Of a stretch of 42,207 nt of DNA, positions 10,593 to 21,550 are shown one piece after another. A program made the position numbers and the translations under genes. Below the pieces are notes generated by a model. The model saw nothing but the letters and a program-made list of their open reading frames with translations, did not search any database and had not been told where the DNA came from. The stretch spans positions 1 to 42,207 of the forward strand of contig JAUZPB010000028.1 of the NCBI GenBank assembly GCA_030706145.1. Reading direction: 5' to 3'. Positions within the stretch are counted from its first letter, which is position 1, and each line of letters opens with the position of its first letter. The stretch is from Bacteroidota bacterium (GTDB lineage: Bacteria > Bacteroidota > Ignavibacteria > Ignavibacteriales > SURF-24).

Positions 10593-11051
10593 TCAGTCCT
10601 TTCCTGTATGTCCAAATCCGCCTTGACCGCGGTCGCTATCATTCAAATCATTAGTTTCAATTAAATCAGCAACAAAAACCTTTGATAAGACCATTTGTGC
10701 AATCCTATCACCGCGAGTAATAATGAAATCCGAATCACTGAAATTAATTAGAATTACTTTTATTTCTCCTCTGTAATCCGAATCAATTGTTCCCGGTGAA
10801 TTAAGAACTCCAATAGCATATTTAGCAGCAAGTCCACTTCTTGGGCGGACCTGCAACTCATAGCCTTCAGGAATTTCAACGGAAAGATTCGTTGGGACAA
10901 GTGCAATTTTACCGCTTGGGATTATGATCTTCTCTAATACAGCAGCTCTAAGATCAAGTCCAGCACTTCCTTTTGTAGCATATTCAGGGAGAGGAATATC
11001 GGGAAAATCTGTAGAAACTCTTTTTACCTTTAATAGAATCTTTTCATTCAT
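10593..11051 (-). CDS. dut: dUTP diphosphatase (dUTPase)
   Basis: A 152-residue trimeric dUTPase that hydrolyses dUTP to dUMP and pyrophosphate, keeping uracil out of DNA and supplying dUMP for dTMP synthesis. All five family motifs can be seen: AGLDLRA (30-36), RPRSGLA (69-75), NSPGTIDSDYRGEI (84-97), RIAQMV (116-121) and the flexible C-terminal RGQGGFGHTG (141-150). The ATG is preceded by AGGAAAG. It leads directly into dnaE, which fits a small DNA-replication operon. Confidence 0.96.
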   Translation of the reverse strand: MNEKILLKVKRVSTDFPDIPLPEYATKGSAGLDLRAAVLEKIIIPSGKIALVPTNLSVEIPEGYELQVRPRSGLAAKYAIGVLNSPGTIDSDYRGEIKVILINFSDSDFIITRGDRIAQMVLSKVFVADLIETNDLNDSDRGQGGFGHTGKD

Positions 11052-11171
11052 AAATATCTTTCCTAGACAAAATATCAGTAGTAAAATAATATTAAAACGT
11101 TTTGAAAGGTACTATGAATTTAGCTTCAACAAAGGTTAAATGCAATCTTGATTATTAATAAAATTAAAGAT

Positions 11172-11194
11172 GAGAAAAGGCAAAGCCTTTTCTC
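11172..11194 (-). terminator. Intrinsic terminator after the GT9 gene
   Basis: A perfect 10-base stem GAGAAAAGGC (11172-11181) / GCCTTTTCTC (11185-11194) encloses a three-base loop. It begins seven bases past the stop codon at 11201 and is followed on the minus strand by ATCTTTAATTTTATT. It separates the polysaccharide-related genes from dut-dnaE. Confidence 0.65.
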
Positions 11195-11200
11195 TCACGT

Positions 11201-12313
11201 TCATGTGTTTAAATTTTGATTTACAGAGAGCAGAACCCTTTCCGGGTAGATGTGTTCAATGCATCTATAATCCTCATTTTTGCATTTAGGAGTAAAATAG
11301 CATTGGCAAGGTTTTTCGGGTTCCAGAATCTCTCCTCTACCAAAAAGTTCGAATTCATTTTTGTTAAAAATATTATTAAAGAGTATAAGTTTCTTCTTTA
11401 AGCCAATTGCAATATGCATTCCCATGGTTACTGCCGAAACGATAAGATCGCATTCATTCATAAGTCCCATAAAGGTCTTTAGGGGCATAACGCCGAAATA
11501 TTTTGCATTTGTTTTTTGTTGAAGTCTTTGATTTTTTTCCTGTTCTTCAGGGCCGCCAAGTATAACAACTTCGTAGCCGGAAGCTTGGAGTCCTTTTATT
11601 AAATCAAGCCAATACTCTTCTGGCCACAGCCTAGAAGTCCATCTTCCACCACATCCAGTATTTAAGCCAACAACCTTTTTCGAATGGTCAATTTCAAACT
11701 GTCTACTCGTATCGAAGGCTGGAAGGATATATTGCTGTAAATTATATTCGAATCCACAAATCTCGAATATTTCCTGCATATAGTTTTTCTTATTTGCAAT
11801 ACTGACATCATCAAAAATGCCGGTCATATACTTATGGATCGCTAAATCGTTTGCAGGATAAGGTTTATTATCTTTTAGGATATAGCCAAAAACATTTTTT
11901 ATATCACTTAAAGATTTGACTAAAGCGCAGGCTTGTTCATCTTTATCAAGATTAATAACAACATCATAGAGAGAATTCTTAACAATTGTCAAAGATGTTT
12001 CATTCCATCCAAGAATCTTATCAACCCCTAGTGAATTTTCTTTGGCAGAAGGAACCAGATCTGGGAACTGAGTAAGCCAAGTAAGATGTGCATCTGGATA
12101 CTTTTCCCTAAGAGCATATAGTAGTGGAGTAGTTCTAATTACATCACCTGCAGCTCCAAGTTTAATAATCAGTATGTTTATAGAAGCAGGATTATAGAAT
12201 TTGCAAACCTCTCCGTTTTCCTCCTGGCAATGAACTCCATGTTGTTTATTTGGTTTGCATGGTATATAGCCTACGAAATGCCGGCAGTCGAATCTGATCT
12301 TATTAAAATCCAT
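11201..12313 (-). CDS. Glycosyltransferase family 9 protein with N-terminal four-cysteine motif
   Basis: A 370-residue GT-B fold protein resembling heptosyltransferases of LPS core assembly. The GT9 body begins near residue 45 with INILIIKLGAAGDVIRTTPL; the second domain shows GLNTGCGGRWTSRLWP and SAVTMGMHIAIGLKKK, the sugar-nucleotide binding region. Before it sits a 40-residue extension with C10, C19, C29 and C37 (CRHF-x5-PC spacing), which looks like a metal-binding site. More cysteines occur near the C-terminus (PCQCYFTPKC). The sugar donor and acceptor cannot be told. It lies 82 bases after a flippase gene and is followed by a terminator, suggesting a role in envelope glycan synthesis. 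Confidence 0.83.
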   Translation of the reverse strand: MDFNKIRFDCRHFVGYIPCKPNKQHGVHCQEENGEVCKFYNPASINILIIKLGAAGDVIRTTPLLYALREKYPDAHLTWLTQFPDLVPSAKENSLGVDKILGWNETSLTIVKNSLYDVVINLDKDEQACALVKSLSDIKNVFGYILKDNKPYPANDLAIHKYMTGIFDDVSIANKKNYMQEIFEICGFEYNLQQYILPAFDTSRQFEIDHSKKVVGLNTGCGGRWTSRLWPEEYWLDLIKGLQASGYEVVILGGPEEQEKNQRLQQKTNAKYFGVMPLKTFMGLMNECDLIVSAVTMGMHIAIGLKKKLILFNNIFNKNEFELFGRGEILEPEKPCQCYFTPKCKNEDYRCIEHIYPERVLLSVNQNLNT

Positions 12314-12395
12314 AAAGTTAAGTTAAATTTTGAATTAGTTTATTTTAGACAAAAATAAAAAATAATTAAACAAAAAAGTAATACACAAGAAGTAA

Positions 12396-13856
12396 TTATA
12401 CTCTTTTTCCAGGAATTCTAATCAGTTTCTTAAATAGAAGATTTTTAAGTGACAAGATTTCCTCTTTATTTATAATTCTAAAGACAAGCAAAAGCATAAA
12501 AAACAATATCAGCAATCCTGTTTTATATAGAAGGTTTGCCCCGCCAAAGGTATAAAAACCCAAAGCATAAATACCAATTGCAAAGAATATCCTTAGTATT
12601 TTACTATATTCGTAGTCAATTTTGTAGAATCTTTGAGTAATAAAGAAAAGAACAATGGCCATAATAAAGTAACTTGCAAGAGTAGCCAAAGCCGCACCAA
12701 TCATTCCCCAGACTGGGATCAAGAGAAAATTAACAACAACATTAGTCAGAGCACCAATTCCAGTAATATATGGAAGATGTTTTGTTTTCTCTTTAATAAA
12801 AATCCCTGCTGTGAAATTTATATAGATTCCATTAAAAAGATAGCCAAGCAGTATAATTGGAATAATAGATAATCCGCTCCAATACCCCTGTCCAATCAGT
12901 AACTTAATAATATCCAGGTAAGAGGAAATAAAGACCAATATCACACTTCCAGCCAAAACGAAATAAGTAAGCACTTTGGCAAATATTTCTTTTGCATTAG
13001 CCTCCTTAGCATTATTCAAAAAGAAAGGCTGCCAGGCGTATTGGAACATAGAGACAAAAAGCATCATAAAAATTCCGAGCTTATAATTTGCTCCGTAAAT
13101 ACCAACAAGGTTCTGATTAGTCAAGGCTTGAAGTATAGGTCTGTCAATTACCTGAATAACCATTGAGGCAATTCCTGCAGGCAGATAAGGAATGCCAAAT
13201 TTCAACATTGTCCTCAAGGTTTCTTTGTTTATCTGCAACTGAAGGTTTTTTAATATATCTGGCAAAAGCACAAGGAAAGAAAACAATGAAGAAACAACAT
13301 TACTTATAAAAACTGCTTTGACACCAATATTAAAAAATCTTATAAGTATAACATTAAGAGCAACATTCAGTAAAATACTAGCAGTCCTAATAGCAGCAAA
13401 TCTCTTTGCCCTTCGTGCAAGTCGAAGATAAGCAAAAGGTATTACAGAAAGAGCATCAAAGAGCAAAATAAAAATAATGTAAGTTGTAATAATTGACTGT
13501 CCTTGTGGAATTTCCATAAAAGAGGAGACAGAATTGTGAAGAATAAGCAAAACAATGGAAATCATGACCGAGGTAAACAGGACGAACAGAAAAGGAGTAG
13601 AAAATACTTCTTTTCTTTCATTTTCTTTTTTAAGCGAAGCATACTTCATATAGGCAGAATCCATACCATACAAATAGACAATATTGAAAAATGCAATATA
13701 TGAGTAAGTTGTATTTACAATACCATATTCAGAAGTCAGAAGTACATGAGTATAGAACGGGACAAGCAAAAACGAAATAAATCTGCTTAAAATCGTACTT
13801 ATGCCATAGATTGCGGTATCTTTTGTTAATTCTTTAACTTTATCTTTCATCAACAT
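12396..13856 (-). CDS. Flippase of the polysaccharide transporter (Wzx/MATE-like) superfamily
   Basis: A 486-residue polytopic membrane protein with about 12-14 hydrophobic segments throughout. It begins with the typical LTKDTAIYGISTILSRFISFLLVPFYT-like first helix and contains GIPYLPAGIASMV in the middle, as in Wzx-type lipid-linked oligosaccharide flippases. Its likely role is to move an undecaprenyl-linked glycan across the inner membrane. It lies between nadC (21 bases upstream) and the GT9 gene, and is the first of two flippases in the window. Two possible ATGs (13856 and 13850) exist; the stronger choice is not clear. The substrate is unknown. Confidence 0.85.
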   Translation of the reverse strand: MLMKDKVKELTKDTAIYGISTILSRFISFLLVPFYTHVLLTSEYGIVNTTYSYIAFFNIVYLYGMDSAYMKYASLKKENERKEVFSTPFLFVLFTSVMISIVLLILHNSVSSFMEIPQGQSIITTYIIFILLFDALSVIPFAYLRLARRAKRFAAIRTASILLNVALNVILIRFFNIGVKAVFISNVVSSLFSFLVLLPDILKNLQLQINKETLRTMLKFGIPYLPAGIASMVIQVIDRPILQALTNQNLVGIYGANYKLGIFMMLFVSMFQYAWQPFFLNNAKEANAKEIFAKVLTYFVLAGSVILVFISSYLDIIKLLIGQGYWSGLSIIPIILLGYLFNGIYINFTAGIFIKEKTKHLPYITGIGALTNVVVNFLLIPVWGMIGAALATLASYFIMAIVLFFITQRFYKIDYEYSKILRIFFAIGIYALGFYTFGGANLLYKTGLLILFFMLLLVFRIINKEEILSLKNLLFKKLIRIPGKRV

Positions 13857-13877
13857 CTCAGTTATCGTAGTCCCGTA

Positions 13878-14729
13878 TCAAATTACAAGAGAAAGGTCAA
13901 GTGAAATATCAAGAGCTTTAACGCTATGTGTTAAGGCACCGACAGAAATAAAATCAACACCTGTTTCAGCAACAGCCCTAACAGTATCAAGGTTAATTCC
14001 ACCAGAAGCTTCAATAAGAGCCTGGTCGTCAATAAGGCTTACAGCCTCTAGCATCATATCCAAGTCAAAGTTATCCAACATAATAATATCGGCTTTACTA
14101 TCAAGAGCTTCCCTGGTTTCTTCCAGGTTTGTAACCTCAACCTCAATCTTAAATGATTTATTATTAGTTTTCATAAAATCGCGGCATGCAGAAACTGCTT
14201 TAGTAATAGAACCGGAGGCAGCGATATGATTATCTTTAATAAGGAACATGTCGTAGAGTCCAATTCTATGGTTACGGCATCCGCCAGCTTCAACAGCCAT
14301 TTTATCTAAGATGCGAAGACCAGGGACAGTTTTTCTTGTATCAATTATTTTTGTTTTTGTATGTTTTATGCTATTCTTAAAGCTGTTAGATAAGGTGGCA
14401 ATTCCACTCATTCTCTGCAAAAAATTTAGAGCTGTTCTTTCAGTAGTCAAAATTGAAGAGGCTTTCCCTTTTACAGAAGCAATTATGTGTCCATATTCAA
14501 CTTTATCGCCATCGCTAACAAATCTTTGAAAATTCAGAGAAGCGTCATAAAGCTGAAACACTCTTTGAACAATGTCCAGTCCTGCAATAATGCCCTTATC
14601 TTTTGCTAAAAATTTAGCTTCGCCAATAATATCTGGAGAAATAGTAGCCTGGGTAGTAATATCGCCAGGTCCAATATCTTCCTTAAATGCTCTTTGAATA
14701 ATTTCGTCTATTTCTTTTTGAAATTTCAT
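13878..14729 (-). CDS. nadC: Nicotinate-nucleotide pyrophosphorylase (carboxylating), quinolinate phosphoribosyltransferase
   Basis: A 283-residue enzyme of de novo NAD synthesis that turns quinolinate and PRPP into nicotinate mononucleotide with loss of CO2. Motifs include EDIGPGDIT near the start, RTALNFLQRMSGIAT, DTRKTVPGLR, the substrate-binding GGCRNHRIGLYD and IKDNHI, and EASGGINLD near the end. Length is normal. Its ATG overlaps the stop of the upstream thioesterase gene by four bases (ATGA), so the two are probably translationally coupled, although no shared pathway is known. Confidence 0.96.
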   Translation of the reverse strand: MKFQKEIDEIIQRAFKEDIGPGDITTQATISPDIIGEAKFLAKDKGIIAGLDIVQRVFQLYDASLNFQRFVSDGDKVEYGHIIASVKGKASSILTTERTALNFLQRMSGIATLSNSFKNSIKHTKTKIIDTRKTVPGLRILDKMAVEAGGCRNHRIGLYDMFLIKDNHIAASGSITKAVSACRDFMKTNNKSFKIEVEVTNLEETREALDSKADIIMLDNFDLDMMLEAVSLIDDQALIEASGGINLDTVRAVAETGVDFISVGALTHSVKALDISLDLSLVI

Positions 14730-15151
14730 TTTTCTTCTTCAATAGTTAAATGTGGAGATAAAGCTTCTAAATAAAATTGTGGAGGTCTTACAGCCTTCTT
14801 TGTATCTTCTTTAATAAAGATATGCTCGGTATACCCCTCTGCAACAATTTCTTCAGTTTCACTTCTTCTAATTACATAATCAATATGTATTTTGGGATGC
14901 GGGAGTTCTTTGACTATAGCCTCAACTTCAAGAAGATCATCATAGCGACCTGCATTTTTATATTTAATAAAAGATTCCAATACAGGAAGCTGGTAGCCTA
15001 AAGATTCTATTTTCCTGTAAGGTAAGCCAATATTTCTTAAGAGTTCAGTTCTCCCTACCTCAAAATATTCAAGATATTTACCGTTATAAACAAACTGCAT
15101 CTTATCAGTATCAGCATAACGGACTCTAATTAAAGTTTTATTTACTAACAT
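14726..15151 (-). CDS. Acyl-CoA thioesterase, YbgC/4-hydroxybenzoyl-CoA thioesterase type hotdog fold
   Basis: A 141-residue single hotdog-fold protein. The N-terminal signature YADTDKMQFVYNGKYLEYFE (12-31) matches the YbgC-like group, in which an Asp of the DTD motif is catalytic; the usual His after the tyrosine is an Asn here. Such enzymes hydrolyse acyl-CoA or acyl-ACP thioesters in the cytoplasm. It follows accA by 18 bases and overlaps nadC, so an accA-thioesterase-nadC operon is likely. The true substrate is unknown. Confidence 0.85.
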   Translation of the reverse strand: MLVNKTLIRVRYADTDKMQFVYNGKYLEYFEVGRTELLRNIGLPYRKIESLGYQLPVLESFIKYKNAGRYDDLLEVEAIVKELPHPKIHIDYVIRRSETEEIVAEGYTEHIFIKEDTKKAVRPPQFYLEALSPHLTIEEEK

Positions 15152-15169
15152 TCAATACTCAAAAAAAAT

Positions 15170-16120
15170 TTATTCGTTGAAGACGCCCATTCTGGCAAAT
15201 TTCTCATATCTATTATCAACCAGTTTATCTGGTTTAAGTTTAACTAGCTGACTTAATTCTTCTTTCAGGACCATTTTAAGATGTGCAGCCATTGCAGGAG
15301 GGTTAGTATGAGCTCCACCTAAGGGTTCGTGCACGATTCTATCTATTATTTTTTGCCTTAGCAGGTCAATTGCTGTAAGTCTTAAAGCTTCTGCGGCCTG
15401 CTCCTTGAAGTCCCAACTTTTCCACAAAATACTTGAACAAGACTCAGGACTAATAACCGAGTACCAGCAGTTTTCGAGCATAAGGATTCTATCACCTACA
15501 CCGATGCCAAGGGCACCACCGCTAGCCCCCTCACCAATAATAACTACAACAATTGGAACCTTAAGTTTGCTCATCTCGAAGAGATTTCTTGCAATAGCTT
15601 CAGCCTGTCCTCTTTGTTCAGCTTCAAGTCCCGGATAAGCACCAGGAGTATCTAACATGGTAATAATGGGTGTGTCAAATTTTTCGGCAAGTTTCATCAG
15701 TCGAAGAGCTTTTCTATAACCTTCGGGGTTAGGCATTCCGAAGTTTCTATAGACATTAGATTTTGTATCTCTACCTTTCTGATGACCAATTATCATTACT
15801 TTATATTCATCTAGTTTTGCAAAGCCGCCAACAATGGATTTATCATCCTTGCACAATCTATCACCATGGAGCTCCACAAAGTCTTTTGTCATAAGTTCAA
15901 TATAGTCGAGTGTATATGGACGTTCAGGATGCCGGGCAATCTGTACTTTCTGCCATCTAGTCAAATTGTTGTAAACGTTTTCCTTCAACTTTTGCACCTT
16001 TCTCTCGAGTTTTACTATTTCATCATCAATATCAAGTACTTCAGAATACTTCCTCATCTCAACAATTTTATTTTCAAGATCCAAAATCGGCTTTTCAAAT
16101 TCCAACACAGTTTTATTCAT
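15170..16120 (-). CDS. accA: Acetyl-CoA carboxylase carboxyltransferase subunit alpha
   Basis: A 316-residue subunit that, with AccD, transfers the carboxyl group from biotin to acetyl-CoA to form malonyl-CoA. The N-terminal helical region holds the family start [12 protein letters not shown], followed by [35 protein letters not shown] and the oxyanion region [12 protein letters not shown], then [10 protein letters not shown]. All are diagnostic for AccA. The ATG at 16120 is chosen over a TTG one codon upstream because AGAGG lies eight bases before it. It lies only 11 bases after the GT2 fusion gene, so it may share a transcript with the polysaccharide genes. Its partner accD is at 37921-38760, some 22 kb away. 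Confidence 0.96.
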
Positions 16121-16131
16121 CAAAGCGCCTC

Positions 16132-18111
16132 TTAATTTATCATTTTACTAAAAGTTTTGCCCAAAATCTCCAGATCAAGCCAAATATTTTGATTTTTGGC
16201 ATAAAAAATATCCAATTTAGTTATGTCGTTTTTATCGTTTTTATCAATTAGTTCAGTATACCATAGGCCTGTAAGTCCCTCTTTTCCCAAATAAAGTTGG
16301 GGATCAGCCTGATATAGCATAGGCCCCACGAGGCTCTTTTTTTGAAGAAAGACCTTTGGCAAAGCAAGAATAAATTTTATAAATTCATTGCTTATTCCAG
16401 TAATTTTTTCACAAAGATATACAAACGGATATATCAAAATCAAGGATGGAATAGTTAATATCTCATCCATCAGAAACTTGAAAACTTTATTGGTAAAGGA
16501 AGAGATGTTAAAAGAGACCTCAAGAAGAGGAATATCATCGAGCATAGTAATAGAAGATTTACCGACCAGGAAGTCAAGTTCACTTCCTGCTACCTTAAAA
16601 TCTACGTTTTCCCCCTGACAATCAGAGACAATGGCCAGCATCTGATTATAGCTTAATTCATTGGAAGAGAAAATAACCTCATTAATTCTTTCTTCTTTTA
16701 TGATCTTTTTTAAGTTATCCAAACTTCCAATAACTTTGAAATCCTCTATTTTCTCTCCAATTGTCTTTCGTGTAATTCCTATTAGCCCAGTAATAGTATG
16801 GACAGCAGCAGATCTAGATTTAACTCTTTTTGCAAGTTCTACAGAATTTTTATCTGTTCCGACTATTAGAGTCTTATATTTTTGAAAATTCTCTGTTCTA
16901 CCAAGCTTAAATAAAAGTTTCAGCAACATTCGCCACAAAGGAAATGCTAAGAAGAGTAACAGATAAGTAATTATTACAACAGCACGGCTATAAGCGTATT
17001 GCTTAAAGAAATATGTTACAGAAGAGAGTACAAAGAATCCAATAAAAATGGAATATATCGATCTTAGAACAGAAAAAGAGTCTCTTTTATAGCTTTTCGT
17101 AATAAAACCGATCAAGATCTGTATAGCAGCCGGAATCGAATACACAATAATTACCGAGTATTGAGGAAAGCCTCTCCAATGTTCGGCATGATAAAATTTA
17201 GAAGCAAGAAAAAGAGTAAGGTCAAAAAAGAAAAAATCAAGTGTAACGGCAAGAAAAATCAATCTATAAACATTTACAAAAGCAAGAGTTTTTCTAAGAG
17301 CAATGGCAAATTGAAGAATTACTTCAACAATAAAAGAAGAAGAAAAGTGTTTTTTAACAAACAGATGCATAGCATCATAAAAGACCTTTGTTTCATCCAT
17401 ACTTGATCTTTTTGTGCTCTCACCCTTGTAATGAATAATTTGCGTGTTATGGAAATAATAGACCTTATAGCCAGCTTTTTGAATCCGGTAGCATAAGTCA
17501 AGATCCTCCCCATACATAAAGAACTGGGAGTCAAAACCACCAACGGCCTGATATACCTCTCTTTTCATTAACATAAAAGCGCCAGAGATGGCATCTACTT
17601 CATAAGTTTTATTTTCATCTAGGTAAGTAAGGTTATATTTAGCGAACAACTTACTTTTAGGGAAAAAAGAGCTAAGTCCAGTTACTTTGCAAAACGAAGC
17701 CCATGGCCCAGGGAAGCCTCTACGGCAAGCAAGTTGAAGAGTTCCATCTGAATTAAGGACCTTGCAACCAGCAAGTCCCGCATCCGGAGTAGATTCAAAA
17801 AAAGCGATAAGTTTTTCAAATGTATCCTCCTGAACAATTGTATCAGGATTGATAAGAAGAATATACCTTCCTGATGAAATCTCAAGGCCCATATTGTTAG
17901 CAATACCAAAGCCTACATTTTTTTTGTTGGCAATGAGTTTAACGCCGGGAAATTTCTCTTCAAGCATTTCCACACTACCATCATCAGAGGCATTATCGAC
18001 TACGATTATTTCTTTTGAGATGCTGGGAGAACTTCTCTGAATTGAATTAAGGAGATTTTGAAGAAACTCTTTAACGTTAAAATTGACTATAATTATAGAT
18101 AGGTCTATCAC
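16132..18111 (-). CDS. Fusion of a GT2 glycosyltransferase and a degenerate polyprenyl-phosphate sugar-transferase-like domain
   Basis: A 659-residue membrane protein. Residues 1-260 form a GT2 domain of the rhamnosyltransferase type: SIIIVNFN (5-12), [19 protein letters not shown], the acidic NPD (88-90) and [10 protein letters not shown] (200-209). About four membrane segments follow (280-400), then a Rossmann-like domain ([10 protein letters not shown] at 411-420). The end (540-659) resembles a bacterial sugar transferase: a membrane helix, SLVGP (593-597), GLTGLWYTE (612-620) and the terminal [20 protein letters not shown] (634-653). The catalytic KFRSM and DE-x-PQ motifs of active enzymes, both present in the gene at 20148-21550, are missing, so this half is probably inactive in transfer. 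The start is GTG with a weak ribosome binding site. Substrates are unknown. Confidence 0.78.
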
Positions 18112-18215: not shown

Positions 18216-18938
18216 TTAATTCAGAACTCCGAAGATACTTTTTAACCTGAGCTTCCAAACCATAAAAATAGCTTCACGCACTATTTTTTTTGACATTTTG
18301 GATCTTCCCTTGACTCTATCGACAAATATAATTGGAATCTCCTTTATTCTAAAGCCGCCCTTCCATGCCTTAAAATTCATTTCAATCTGGAAAGAATAAC
18401 CATTTGAGGTAATTTTATCGAGGTTAATTGATTCAAGTACTTTTCTTCTGAAGCATTTGAATCCGCCTGTTGCATCGGCTACGGGTAATCCTGTAACAAA
18501 CTTAGTATATTTATTGGCATAATAGCTAAGTAATAATCTTCTCATAGGCCAGTTAATAACATTAACTCCGTTACTATAGCGGCTACCTATGACAAGGTCA
18601 TTTTCCTTTATGGTTTCAAAAAAGGTGGCAATATCTTTAGGATCATGAGAGTAATCGGCATCCATCTGAATTGCAAATTCATATCCATTTTTGAGCATAT
18701 AGTGAAAACCAGCAACATAAGCAGTCCCCAAGCCCATTTTTTGGGGACGCTCAATTATTTTGATACAATTATCCGACTTTTGTTTTTCCTTAACAAACTG
18801 CGCAGTTCCGTCTGGGGAGTTATCGTCAACGACGAGAATATCCAAAAAGGGATAGCGCGCCCTTAGATCCGGAATAAGCATTTGAAGGTTATCCAGTTCA
18901 TTATAAGTAGGTATTATGACGATTGACTTCCCATTCAT
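18216..18938 (-). CDS. Polyprenol-phosphate mannosyltransferase-like GT2 glycosyltransferase
   Basis: A 240-residue soluble GT2 enzyme of the Dpm1 group, which transfers a hexose from a nucleotide sugar to polyprenyl phosphate on the cytoplasmic face of the membrane. Motifs: IIPTYNELDNLQ (8-19), VVDDNSPDGTA, GLGTAYVAGF, the metal-binding DADYSHDP (about 93-100), IGSRYSNG and the late ATGGFKCFRR. It lacks the C-terminal membrane domain of longer homologues. It follows the aminotransferase gene by four bases (TAA GTTC ATG), so it is probably co-translated. The lipid-linked sugar could serve as donor for the glycan of this locus or for protein glycosylation. Confidence 0.86.
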   Translation of the reverse strand: MNGKSIVIIPTYNELDNLQMLIPDLRARYPFLDILVVDDNSPDGTAQFVKEKQKSDNCIKIIERPQKMGLGTAYVAGFHYMLKNGYEFAIQMDADYSHDPKDIATFFETIKENDLVIGSRYSNGVNVINWPMRRLLLSYYANKYTKFVTGLPVADATGGFKCFRRKVLESINLDKITSNGYSFQIEMNFKAWKGGFRIKEIPIIFVDRVKGRSKMSKKIVREAIFMVWKLRLKSIFGVLN

Positions 18939-18942
18939 GAAC

Positions 18943-20046
18943 TTATTTCTTCCCTACAAATTCAATAATACTAGAAGCGATATAATCAATTTCTTCAGCT
19001 GATAATTCAGGATACATAGGAAGAGACATAATTTCTTTAGCAACCTTTTCAGCAACCGGAAGGACAAGACCTTCACTTAAGTGTTTGAATGCAGGCTGCT
19101 GGTGAAGTGGTATTGGATAATGAACAGCCGATGGGATATCCTTAGAAGCTAAAAACTCCTGAAGGCCTTTTCTATCCTGAACTCTAATGGAGAACTGATG
19201 GTAAATATGGTTTGAGAAATCAGCTACATAAGGGAGAACGACGTTTGCATTGCAGAGCTTTTCCGAATAAAGTTTAGCATTATTAGCTCTGGCTTTGTTC
19301 CATTTATCAATATATTTTATCTTGACATTAAGAATTGCAGCCTGAAGAGTGTCCATCCTTGAATTAAGTCCAAGTATCTCATGAACATATCTTTCTTTTG
19401 AACCGTGAGCAGCAATCATTTTTATCTTTGTAGCCAGATTTTCATTCTGGGTAAAGACCATACCTGAATCACCATAGCATCCCAGGTTCTTGCTTGGGAA
19501 AAAGCTTGTAGCAGCAGCATCAGCCAAAGCGCCAACTCTTTTTCCTTTATATTCAGTACCGAAAGCCTGAGCAGCATCTTCAATAACATAGAGATTGTGT
19601 TTCTTAGCAATAGAAATAATTGGATCAAGGTCTGCAGCTTGGCCAAAAAGGTGAACTGGGATAATAGCTTTTGTTTTTTCAGTTATAGCAGCTTCAATCT
19701 TAGTAACATCAATATTGTAAGTTTTTTCATCAATATCGACATAAACAGGTTTTGCACCGAGTAATGCAATAGTCTCAGCAGTAGCAACGAAAGTAAAAGG
19801 TGTAGTAATAACCTCATCACCAGGTTTAATATCCAGAGCCATAAGGCAAATCTGAAGAGCATCGGTACCGCTAGCACATGCAAAAGCGTATTTAGAATTC
19901 AAATAACTGGCGCATGCACCTTCAAACTCACCTACTTGCTTACCCAGAATAAACTGAGTAGAGCTAATAACCTCATTAACTGCAGAATCAATTTCATCTT
20001 TAATTGTAGCATATTGCTTTTTTAGGTCAACCATTGCAATTTTCAT
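18943..20046 (-). CDS. DegT/DnrJ/EryC1/StrS sugar aminotransferase (WbpE-like)
   Basis: A 367-residue PLP enzyme that converts a keto nucleotide sugar to an amino sugar. The PLP lysine is in SFFPSKNLGCYGD (K186), and CASGTDALQI, VIEDAAQAFG and the late VHYPIPLHQQPAF agree closely with WbpE-type UDP-3-keto sugar aminotransferases. The start at 20046 (MKIAMVDLKKQY) has GGAG six bases upstream; the longer frame to 20073 begins inside the leader and lacks this site. The role is to supply an amino-sugar precursor for the surface glycan. No sugar-nucleotide dehydrogenase or acetyltransferase partner is present in the window, so the product is uncertain. Confidence 0.88.
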   Translation of the reverse strand: MKIAMVDLKKQYATIKDEIDSAVNEVISSTQFILGKQVGEFEGACASYLNSKYAFACASGTDALQICLMALDIKPGDEVITTPFTFVATAETIALLGAKPVYVDIDEKTYNIDVTKIEAAITEKTKAIIPVHLFGQAADLDPIISIAKKHNLYVIEDAAQAFGTEYKGKRVGALADAAATSFFPSKNLGCYGDSGMVFTQNENLATKIKMIAAHGSKERYVHEILGLNSRMDTLQAAILNVKIKYIDKWNKARANNAKLYSEKLCNANVVLPYVADFSNHIYHQFSIRVQDRKGLQEFLASKDIPSAVHYPIPLHQQPAFKHLSEGLVLPVAEKVAKEIMSLPMYPELSAEEIDYIASSIIEFVGKK

Positions 20047-20147
20047 TTGTGCTCCAAGGTTTATTATTTTCAAAATTTATATTTTCAAATTCTTTAGTGT
20101 GCTATACTAAAGGAACAAGTAAAAAGTTTCACTTTCGAATAACAAAC

Positions 20148-21550
20148 TTATTCAAAATGTCCTTTCCCAAAAAGGACGACAAAAATTGTTCTAAACAAAA
20201 TCTTAAAATCCATTCTCAAAGACATATTTTCGATATAGAAAAGATCATACCTAAGCTTAGCCTTGACATCCTCTATGCTCTCGTCATATTTATGTTTAAC
20301 CTGCGCCCAACCAGTTACACCTGGCCGAACTTTAAGCCTCTTTTTATACAAAGGAATTTCCTTTGAGAGCTTTTCGACAAAAAATGGTCTTTCAGGTCTA
20401 GGGCCAACCAAGCTCATTTCACCTTTCAAGACATTAATCATCTGAGGAATTTCATCTATTCTAACTTTTCTGATAAATCTACCAATCCTTGTAATTCTGG
20501 GATCATTTTTCTGTGACCAGACCGGACCGGTTAGTTTCTCAGCATCACTACGCATTGAACGGAATTTATAGACATTAAACTCTTTTCCATTAAGACCCAC
20601 ACGGCACTGTTTATAAAGAATAGTTCCTTTACTATCAAGCTTAATAAGTATAGAGACCATTAAAGTTACAGGAAAAGAGACAATTAAAATAAGTAAAGAA
20701 ACAATAATATCCATTAGCCGTTTCATCTTTTTTTCCCACTCCGGCATCAGTTGCGGCATTATATCAATCAAAGGGAAGCCATAAATCTGAGAGGTCCTGG
20801 CTTGTCCGCTGATTATTTCATAAAGATCGGGTACAATCTTTATTCCCACGTTATGGGAATCACATAGAGAGATCAGATCGACAAATATATCTTCTTTATT
20901 TTTATCCAAAGCCAGGATAATTTCTTTAGCTGAAGTTTGTTCAATTACTGCTTGGATATTCCTGTAATAATCTAAAACCTTAACTCCTTTACATTCCTTA
21001 CCAACATTTTCCTCATTAACGGCAATAAAGCCCTTTACATCCAGACCCAGGGCTTTATAATTAATTATTTTCTCGCAAATACTGAAAGCTTTTTCATTAA
21101 ATCCGACTATAAGGGCATTTTTTCTTCCATAGCCATTACAAGAAGGCTTCTTTGCAGACTTCTAATAAAAAGCCTGCCAAAGCTGACAAAGAAGAAAAAT
21201 ATTCCCCAATAGACAAATATTAGGAAACGATTTGTACTAGATTCATTTTGTATATAATCATCAAAAAGAATAACAAAAAAGATGACAAAAATACCAACAA
21301 AGGAAGACTTAAAAAGAGTTGAAATCTCATCAAACCTGGAAGAAGCAAACCAAGTACGATACATTCCAACAAAAAGGAAAATAATGAACCAGAAGGTATA
21401 AACGATGACCATTGGGATCCAGAATTCGGGCTGGGAGAACACGCTGAACCATTTAATTTCAACCCGAAACAAATAATAGGCAAACCAAGCCAGATTGATA
21501 GCAAAGAAATCAACAAGAAGAATCAGTATTTTTTCGATTTTTTTATCCAA
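20148..21550 (-). pseudogene. Polyprenyl glycosylphosphotransferase (initiating sugar transferase) split by a one-base frameshift
   Basis: Two minus-strand frames form one gene of about 467 residues. The first (21550-21107) gives the N-terminal membrane half with about four helices. The second carries the Rossmann-like middle (KNALIVGFNEKAF) and the catalytic C-terminus: FNVYKFRSM, RIDEIPQ, SLVGPRPERP and PGVTGWAQV, all intact. They join near 21115-21135, where the reading frame moves by -1 around an A-run of six; the restored join reads YGRKNALIVG, as in relatives. The enzyme attaches a sugar-1-phosphate to undecaprenyl phosphate, the first step of the glycan. A real mutation, phase variation, programmed frameshifting and an assembly error are all possible. 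The start is TTG with GGAAG upstream. Confidence 0.8.

Follow-up and report, generated by a model that had tools for sequence, protein, structure and literature searches.

A GT2 glycosyltransferase fused to a large PGT scaffold that lacks the catalytic core, conserved in Ignavibacteria and other Bacteroidota

Large PGTs (Lg-PGTs) and bifunctional PGTs (Bi-PGTs) are both known classes, as set out in the available text of PMC10942596, where the Bi-PGT class is cited to O'Toole et al. 2021. In Bi-PGTs, a second functional domain is fused to a monoPGT. The Lg-PGT WbaP from S. enterica (8t53, 9s7s) is built, in order, from a four-helix bundle, a PF13727 domain, a re-entrant helix and C-terminal docking helices, and PglC from Campylobacter (8g1n, 8e37) is a small monotopic PGT. 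The protein analyzed here can be compared with each of these. It keeps the domain order of WbaP but differs in carrying an N-terminal GT2 domain, in lacking 55–59 residues that include the catalytic dyad and KFRSM, and in having lost the GPRP arginine. The fold of its gutted PGT domain is like that of PglC, with equivalents of Lys7, Pro24 and Asp169, but this domain is without a catalytic core and is not free-standing. As in Bi-PGTs, a second functional domain has been fused to a PGT; in contrast to Bi-PGTs, where the partner is the PGT catalytic domain, the core is excised here and the scaffold is that of an Lg-PGT. The protein therefore shows the fusion that marks a Bi-PGT without the active core to which a Bi-PGT domain is fused. 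The GT2 half resembles in fold and motifs the GT2s of polysaccharide and Und-PP glycan pathways, among them the rhamnosyltransferase TIGR01556 and the WrtF fucosyltransferase (9omm), although its matches to TIGR01556 and other named GT2 subfamilies fall far below their cut-offs. To our knowledge, neither the TIGR01556 rhamnosyltransferase nor WrtF-type GT2s carry a PGT-derived module. In the literature searched, we found no GT2-fused large PGT with its core excised. Nor did this literature describe a PGT family that is inactive or pseudoenzymatic, the one related match dealing with point variants of PglC; most subscription journals lay outside the scope of this search, which is no proof of absence.

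The window (the whole stretch of DNA analyzed, 42,207 nucleotides) is one contig, C201, of a 5.3 Mb genome in 345 contigs. The fusion gene occupies 16132..18111 on the minus strand and is a single open reading frame with a GTG start, encoding 659 amino acids. Its GT2 catalytic domain (residues 1–240; 17392..18111, −) was delimited by a Pfam match (PF00535, residues 5–189, E = 3.6e-26), by conservation, and by VIA-align comparison of the predicted model with 6p61 (Z 25.6, rmsd 1.9, 184 residues aligned). For conservation, we retained homologues with BLAST bits >250, a query start <80 and a query end ≥480, a filter that deliberately leaves out trimmed forms; of 185 loci, 174 passed, representing 155 distinct homologues. 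D39, N40, D44, N88-P89-D90, E202-D203 and H227 of the GT2 domain all have a frequency of 1.00 in this set. The GT2 half is very likely active.

The remainder of the protein follows the plan of a large PGT. A linker and four-helix membrane bundle (residues 241–405; 16897..17391, −) contains predicted helices at residues 283–306, 317–337, 348–372 and 376–401. From residue 291 it is covered by the better of two stretches matching the NCBIfam model EPS_sugtrans (residues 291–566 to profile positions 2–279 of 445, 1e-36, below the family cut-off). The Rossmann-like domain (about residues 406–540; 16492..16896, −) is supported by the Pfam match to CoA_binding_3/PF13727 (residues 338–506, E = 1.7e-11) and by VIA-align to 3nkl (Z 12.7) and to WbaP 8t53. 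What is left of the PGT domain spans residues 541–659. It opens with a re-entrant membrane helix (residues 539–571; 16399..16497, −), predicted as a helix-break-helix (539–559/561–571) that carries K545, D549 and P562. It closes with a retained docking part (residues 607–658; 16138..16293, −) that includes the GLTG loop, Y637, N640 and D646 and was placed by alignment with PglC and by a Bac_transf (PF02397) match. The latter covers only residues 607–658, corresponding to profile positions 126–178 of 179 (E = 6.4e-7; 29.5 bits against a cut-off of 27). Taken together, the EPS_sugtrans and Bac_transf matches indicate that the fused partner is the whole large PGT plan and no fragment. Pfam, NCBIfam and the predicted structure all place the four-helix bundle and PF13727 ahead of the PGT domain, as in Lg-PGTs. 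Thus, the earlier reading of this gene, an intact GT2 domain joined to a complete initiating sugar transferase plan, agrees with Pfam, EPS_sugtrans and the predicted helices.

Homology to the PGT family rests on the above-cut-off Bac_transf match and on a fold match to PglC. Because VIA-align of the whole model covered the GT2 part alone, the PGT half was folded separately; the models are of moderate confidence (pLDDT 80.3 and 78.4; pTM 0.60 and 0.46). The half-model aligned with PglC 8g1n over residues 537–659 (Z 10.4, rmsd 3.4, 121 aligned), and Foldseek matched it to WbaP 8t53 at E = 9.7e-10. Over residues 1–376 of the half, VIA-align to 8t53 gave Z 12.5 with an rmsd of 15.8, which is large because domain placement differs.

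The preliminary description had noted that KFRSM and DE-x-PQ were missing while SLVGP and the membrane-docking end were kept, and alignment with PGTs of the same genome bears this out. The motifs were not, however, lost by substitution; the entire block that held them is deleted. Between the re-entrant helix and the loop preceding SLVGP, at the site now occupied by residues 572–592 (16336..16398, −), approximately 55–59 residues bearing KFRSM and the DE-x-PQ dyad are gone. As a result, the distance from the lysine to SLVG is 48 residues in the fusion protein, against 103–107 in four distinct canonical PGT genes of the same genome (seven ORF copies). Among the 155 homologues, this distance is 33–76 residues in the 151 that reach this part, while the other four stop short of the pseudo-PGT. 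DE.P[QH] does not occur after residue 500 in any of the 155 (0/155). KFRSM is likewise absent from the catalytic position in all 155; eight contain a K[FLYM]R[ST] string elsewhere after residue 500. With the dyad found in none of the homologues, the expectation that the PGT half is without canonical activity holds across the family, and on sequence grounds this half cannot carry out canonical PGT chemistry. By the same two motifs, the protein is judged to be built on a PGT scaffold and yet not to be a PGT by function.

The preliminary description had left it to a search of other genomes whether this domain order recurs or is a chance event in one. Near-full-length orthologues, each encoded by a single open frame and matching over no fewer than 646 of the 659 residues, are present in 57 of 59 relatives, so the fusion is not unique to this genome and hence no chance event. 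The two exceptions are G014, which has none, and G048, in which the gene is split across two contig ends. Counted by eye, 230 of 245 sampled Ignavibacteria genomes have a strong match (E ≤ 6.4e-86), and the remaining 15, several of them incomplete, have a weaker one. For other Bacteroidota classes, a count by eye gave a lower bound of 61 out of 260 genomes with the long fused form (match past residue 500). Named records carrying the fusion belong to Ignavibacteria, Melioribacter, Stygiobacter and similar taxa, including Stygiobacter electus strain 09-Me. In a plasmid collection, none of 426 matching records covers 80% of the query; in the 12 listed, the match is confined to the GT2 part. That the same protein has been kept across a large bacterial group suggests that the gutted half still has a job.

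Phylogenetic trees place this half apart from active enzymes. A branch with 100/100 support and a length of 1.2 changes separates the 25 fused PGT halves from 27 active PGT rows. Going by this tree, the gutted half is of single ancient origin, and the protein is best described as a GT2 with a membrane module, the latter a large monotopic PGT made into a pseudoenzyme by one ancient excision of its core. Recent duplication of the neighboring PGT was considered as an origin and rejected, since the long 100/100 branch sets the fused halves apart. An active fused GT2-PGT surviving as a living ancestor was also rejected, there being none among the 155 homologues. At the four loci examined for it (L178 5986-8208, L088 6510-8710, L182 4492-6706, L177 6719-8929), the same order occurs unfused: a separate GT2 gene ends 8–27 bases, stop codon included, upstream of the active Lg-PGT gene. 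This GT2 belongs to another clade and therefore offers only an analogy for the state before fusion.

We favor, with a probability of roughly 0.6, the explanation that the conserved pseudo-PGT docks its GT2 to the membrane and to a lipid acceptor, onto which the GT2 adds an early sugar. According to the available text of PMC6133551, the determinants of the PglC re-entrant helix are Lys7, Arg8 and Ser23/Pro24, with Lys7 bridged to Asp169; activity requires both Pro24 and Lys7, and Pro24 is a proposed polyprenol contact. Taking the PDB chain index as 4 ahead of the paper's numbering, PDB and family alignments map Lys7, Arg8, Ser23/Pro24 and Asp169 to K545, position 546, Y561/P562 and D646 of the fusion protein, and the spacing from K545 to P562 equals that from Lys7 to Pro24. 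Position 545 is lysine in 143 of 155 homologues and arginine in 7 more, P562 is proline in 144 of 155, and D646 is aspartate in all 151 rows with a letter there. Position 546 is arginine in 81 of 155 and phenylalanine in the protein under study. Thus, the re-entrant helix with its Lys ... Pro pair and the Lys-Asp staple are both retained. The interpretation in the preliminary description is partly supported: the inactive fused half, its recurrence in other genomes, its linkage to an active Lg-PGT in Ignavibacteria and these helix determinants all agree with it, and the holding of the Und-linked sugar, docking to the active enzyme and addition of the second sugar are putative.

In the mechanism we propose, the neighboring active PGT would make the Und-PP-linked sugar, onto which the GT2 would add an early, probably the second, sugar. 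The re-entrant helix, the Lys-Asp staple and the amphipathic helices would seat the GT2 at the cytoplasmic face of the membrane and may also hold the acceptor by its polyprenyl chain. The assignment to the second step probably holds, given the gene linkage and the kind of GT2. The Rossmann domain and its hairpin may additionally dimerize the fusion protein. The relevant segment, residues 516–533 (16513..16566, −), aligns with WbaP 251–268, the domain-swap β-hairpin; G517, K518 and L524 are invariant in 41 sequences, and two short strands are predicted there with low pLDDT in the monomer models. From the alignment, pairing through the Rossmann domain and this segment is plausible, either of the fusion protein with itself or with the active PGT. 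According to the available text of a 2025 study (PMC12802240), dimerization of a large PGT can be promoted by a partner protein.

It is possible, at odds well short of even, that the half, inherited from an ancestral bifunctional enzyme, binds neither a lipid acceptor nor the active PGT and serves only to anchor the protein in the membrane and as a scaffold for folding or homodimer formation. Constraint on the gutted domain is indeed slightly relaxed: dN/dS is 0.059–0.249, against 0.026–0.076 for the GT2 domain, in the 25 listed of 36 qualifying close pairs, which share sequences and so are not independent. Purifying selection thus maintains the half, if a little less strictly than the GT2. 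Additionally, the arginine of GPRP, following SLVGP, is mostly lost (R in only 18 of 155), so any contacts with phosphate or nucleotide at this position are gone.

Progressive loss in Bacteroidia points in the same direction. In several Bacteroidia the GT2 has been kept without the membrane helices and the pseudo-PGT, the proteins ending after the GT2 domain itself or after about 110 further residues that resemble the end of the Rossmann domain. We obtained proteins from 8 of 14 such loci examined, and six of the eight gave weak matches to the Rossmann remnant (17.0, 14.1, 10.0, 10.0, 5.5 and 4.4 bits, with E-values for 8 targets). In the GT2 tree, with a midpoint root, 27 fused proteins, the 8 trimmed ones and an odd long ORF (L175) form one clade (100/99) against 34 paralogues. 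The trimmed forms are nested within the fused ones at about four places, which suggests that a fused ancestor was trimmed more than once. In L128, L156 and L161-L164 the re-entrant helix and C-terminal loops have decayed; L156 and L161-L164 come from other classes of the phylum. The existence of trimmed and decayed relatives means that the dock is not indispensable everywhere. Two of the decayed genes, L156 6001-7827 and L128 5704-7659, have nearly lost these elements and are intermediate between fused and trimmed forms. One trimmed orthologue, in Parabacteroides distasonis (L216 3980-5146), consists of the GT2 and a short C-terminal remnant, is annotated as glycosyltransferase family 2, and sits between recR, which it directly follows, and a GNAT gene. 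Against a bare anchor stands the retention, across the 155 homologues, of the Pro24 equivalent (144) and the Lys-Asp staple (143–151), which seems beyond an anchor's needs; a four-helix bundle with a re-entrant helix would also be a costly anchor.

Rather unlikely, in our estimate, is a second alternative, in which the pseudo-PGT half docks onto the active Lg-PGT as a heterodimer, through the Rossmann hairpin and membrane helices and in the way WbaP protomers pair, so that the Und-PP-sugar is passed on directly. The active enzyme that the preliminary description placed 2 kb upstream (20148..21550, −) does carry all the canonical motifs and is intact in relatives, but in this assembly it is frameshifted and lies in two reading frames, the C-terminal one open for 337 amino acids and the N-terminal piece (21107–21550) in another frame. 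Between it and the fusion gene lie a conserved polyprenyl-phosphate-sugar-synthase-like GT2 gene (DPM1-like; 18216..18938, −) and a variable DegT/DnrJ/EryC1 aminotransferase gene (18943..20073, −); the gene-order display covered loci of at least 9 kb. Downstream of the fusion is a conserved accA gene (15170..16123, −), and more glycosyltransferase genes are found upstream in the window. Over 11000-16123, the fusion is followed by the fatty-acid gene accA, a thioesterase gene, nadC and a flippase-like gene, an order conserved in Ignavibacteria. Elsewhere in the same genome, three more PGT genes are clustered on one contig (G000:C17:10306-13246; L002, L003, L005).

Gene order favors docking within Ignavibacteria, where an active Lg-PGT gene lies less than 4 kb upstream of the fusion in all 53 named loci with enough flank; the DPM-like gene is upstream in 51 of 53 and accA downstream in 65 of 66. 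The linkage weakens at loci from the class sample, beyond the order, where the corresponding counts are 19 of 28, 19 of 28 and 25 of 27. Outside Ignavibacteria the linkage is loose, with an active Lg-PGT at 1 of 20 loci, the DPM-like gene at 3 of 20 and accA at 7 of 26. Orthologues of the active Lg-PGT form one clade alongside the fusion (90/79). The segment aligned with the WbaP hairpin is conserved and yet poorly modeled in the monomer, and the hairpin was likewise anomalous in the WbaP authors' own monomer model, as related in the available text of PMC10942596. The Rossmann domain is also what the trimmed Bacteroidia relatives still show. However, WbaP itself is a homodimer, the fused half is no recent duplicate of the neighboring PGT, and the loss of membrane helices and pseudo-PGT in several Bacteroidia that kept the GT2 argues against obligate docking.

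A broader version, which we regard as distinctly unlikely, would be a phylum-conserved two-enzyme initiation complex in which the active Lg-PGT and the GT2/pseudo-PGT are joined by the scaffold they share and the lipid-linked first sugar is handed directly to the GT2. The GT2 could then belong to a phylum-wide pathway for the O-glycan core disaccharide. It is a candidate because this clade of GT2 orthologues extends through Bacteroidota, with trimmed forms in Bacteroidia and a position next to recR in Parabacteroides. The available text of a review describes the enzymes for the Bacteroidota O-glycan core as unidentified (PMC12871550).

It is very improbable that the half is an active PGT with a rebuilt active site. 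Its strong conservation and full Lg-PGT architecture would fit such an enzyme, but the strongly conserved polar residues (K545, D549, S593, Y637, N640 and D646) are all common to canonical PGTs and lie outside the excised core. In the family alignment, the gutted domain shows neither substitute catalytic residues nor a family-specific acidic pair; the alternative catalytic set that the preliminary description had allowed for was thus not seen. Finally, an annotation or assembly artefact, with two genes read through by chance, has a negligible probability despite the frameshifted PGT gene on the same contig, and is refuted by the same single-frame fusion in the 57 relatives, single-contig genomes included, and in Stygiobacter electus strain 09-Me.

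For annotation, these proteins call for caution, since a PF13727/PF02397 match bearing the name 'sugar transferase' may belong to an inactive protein. Several envelope pathways draw on the same scarce Und-P, which makes the route from the first lipid-linked sugar to the next enzyme a question of interest. A pseudo-PGT that is under selection across the phylum and fused to a GT2 is a tractable natural case, a scaffold stripped of its chemistry that still has the elements for handling membrane and lipid, with trimmed relatives in culturable Bacteroidia as matching controls.
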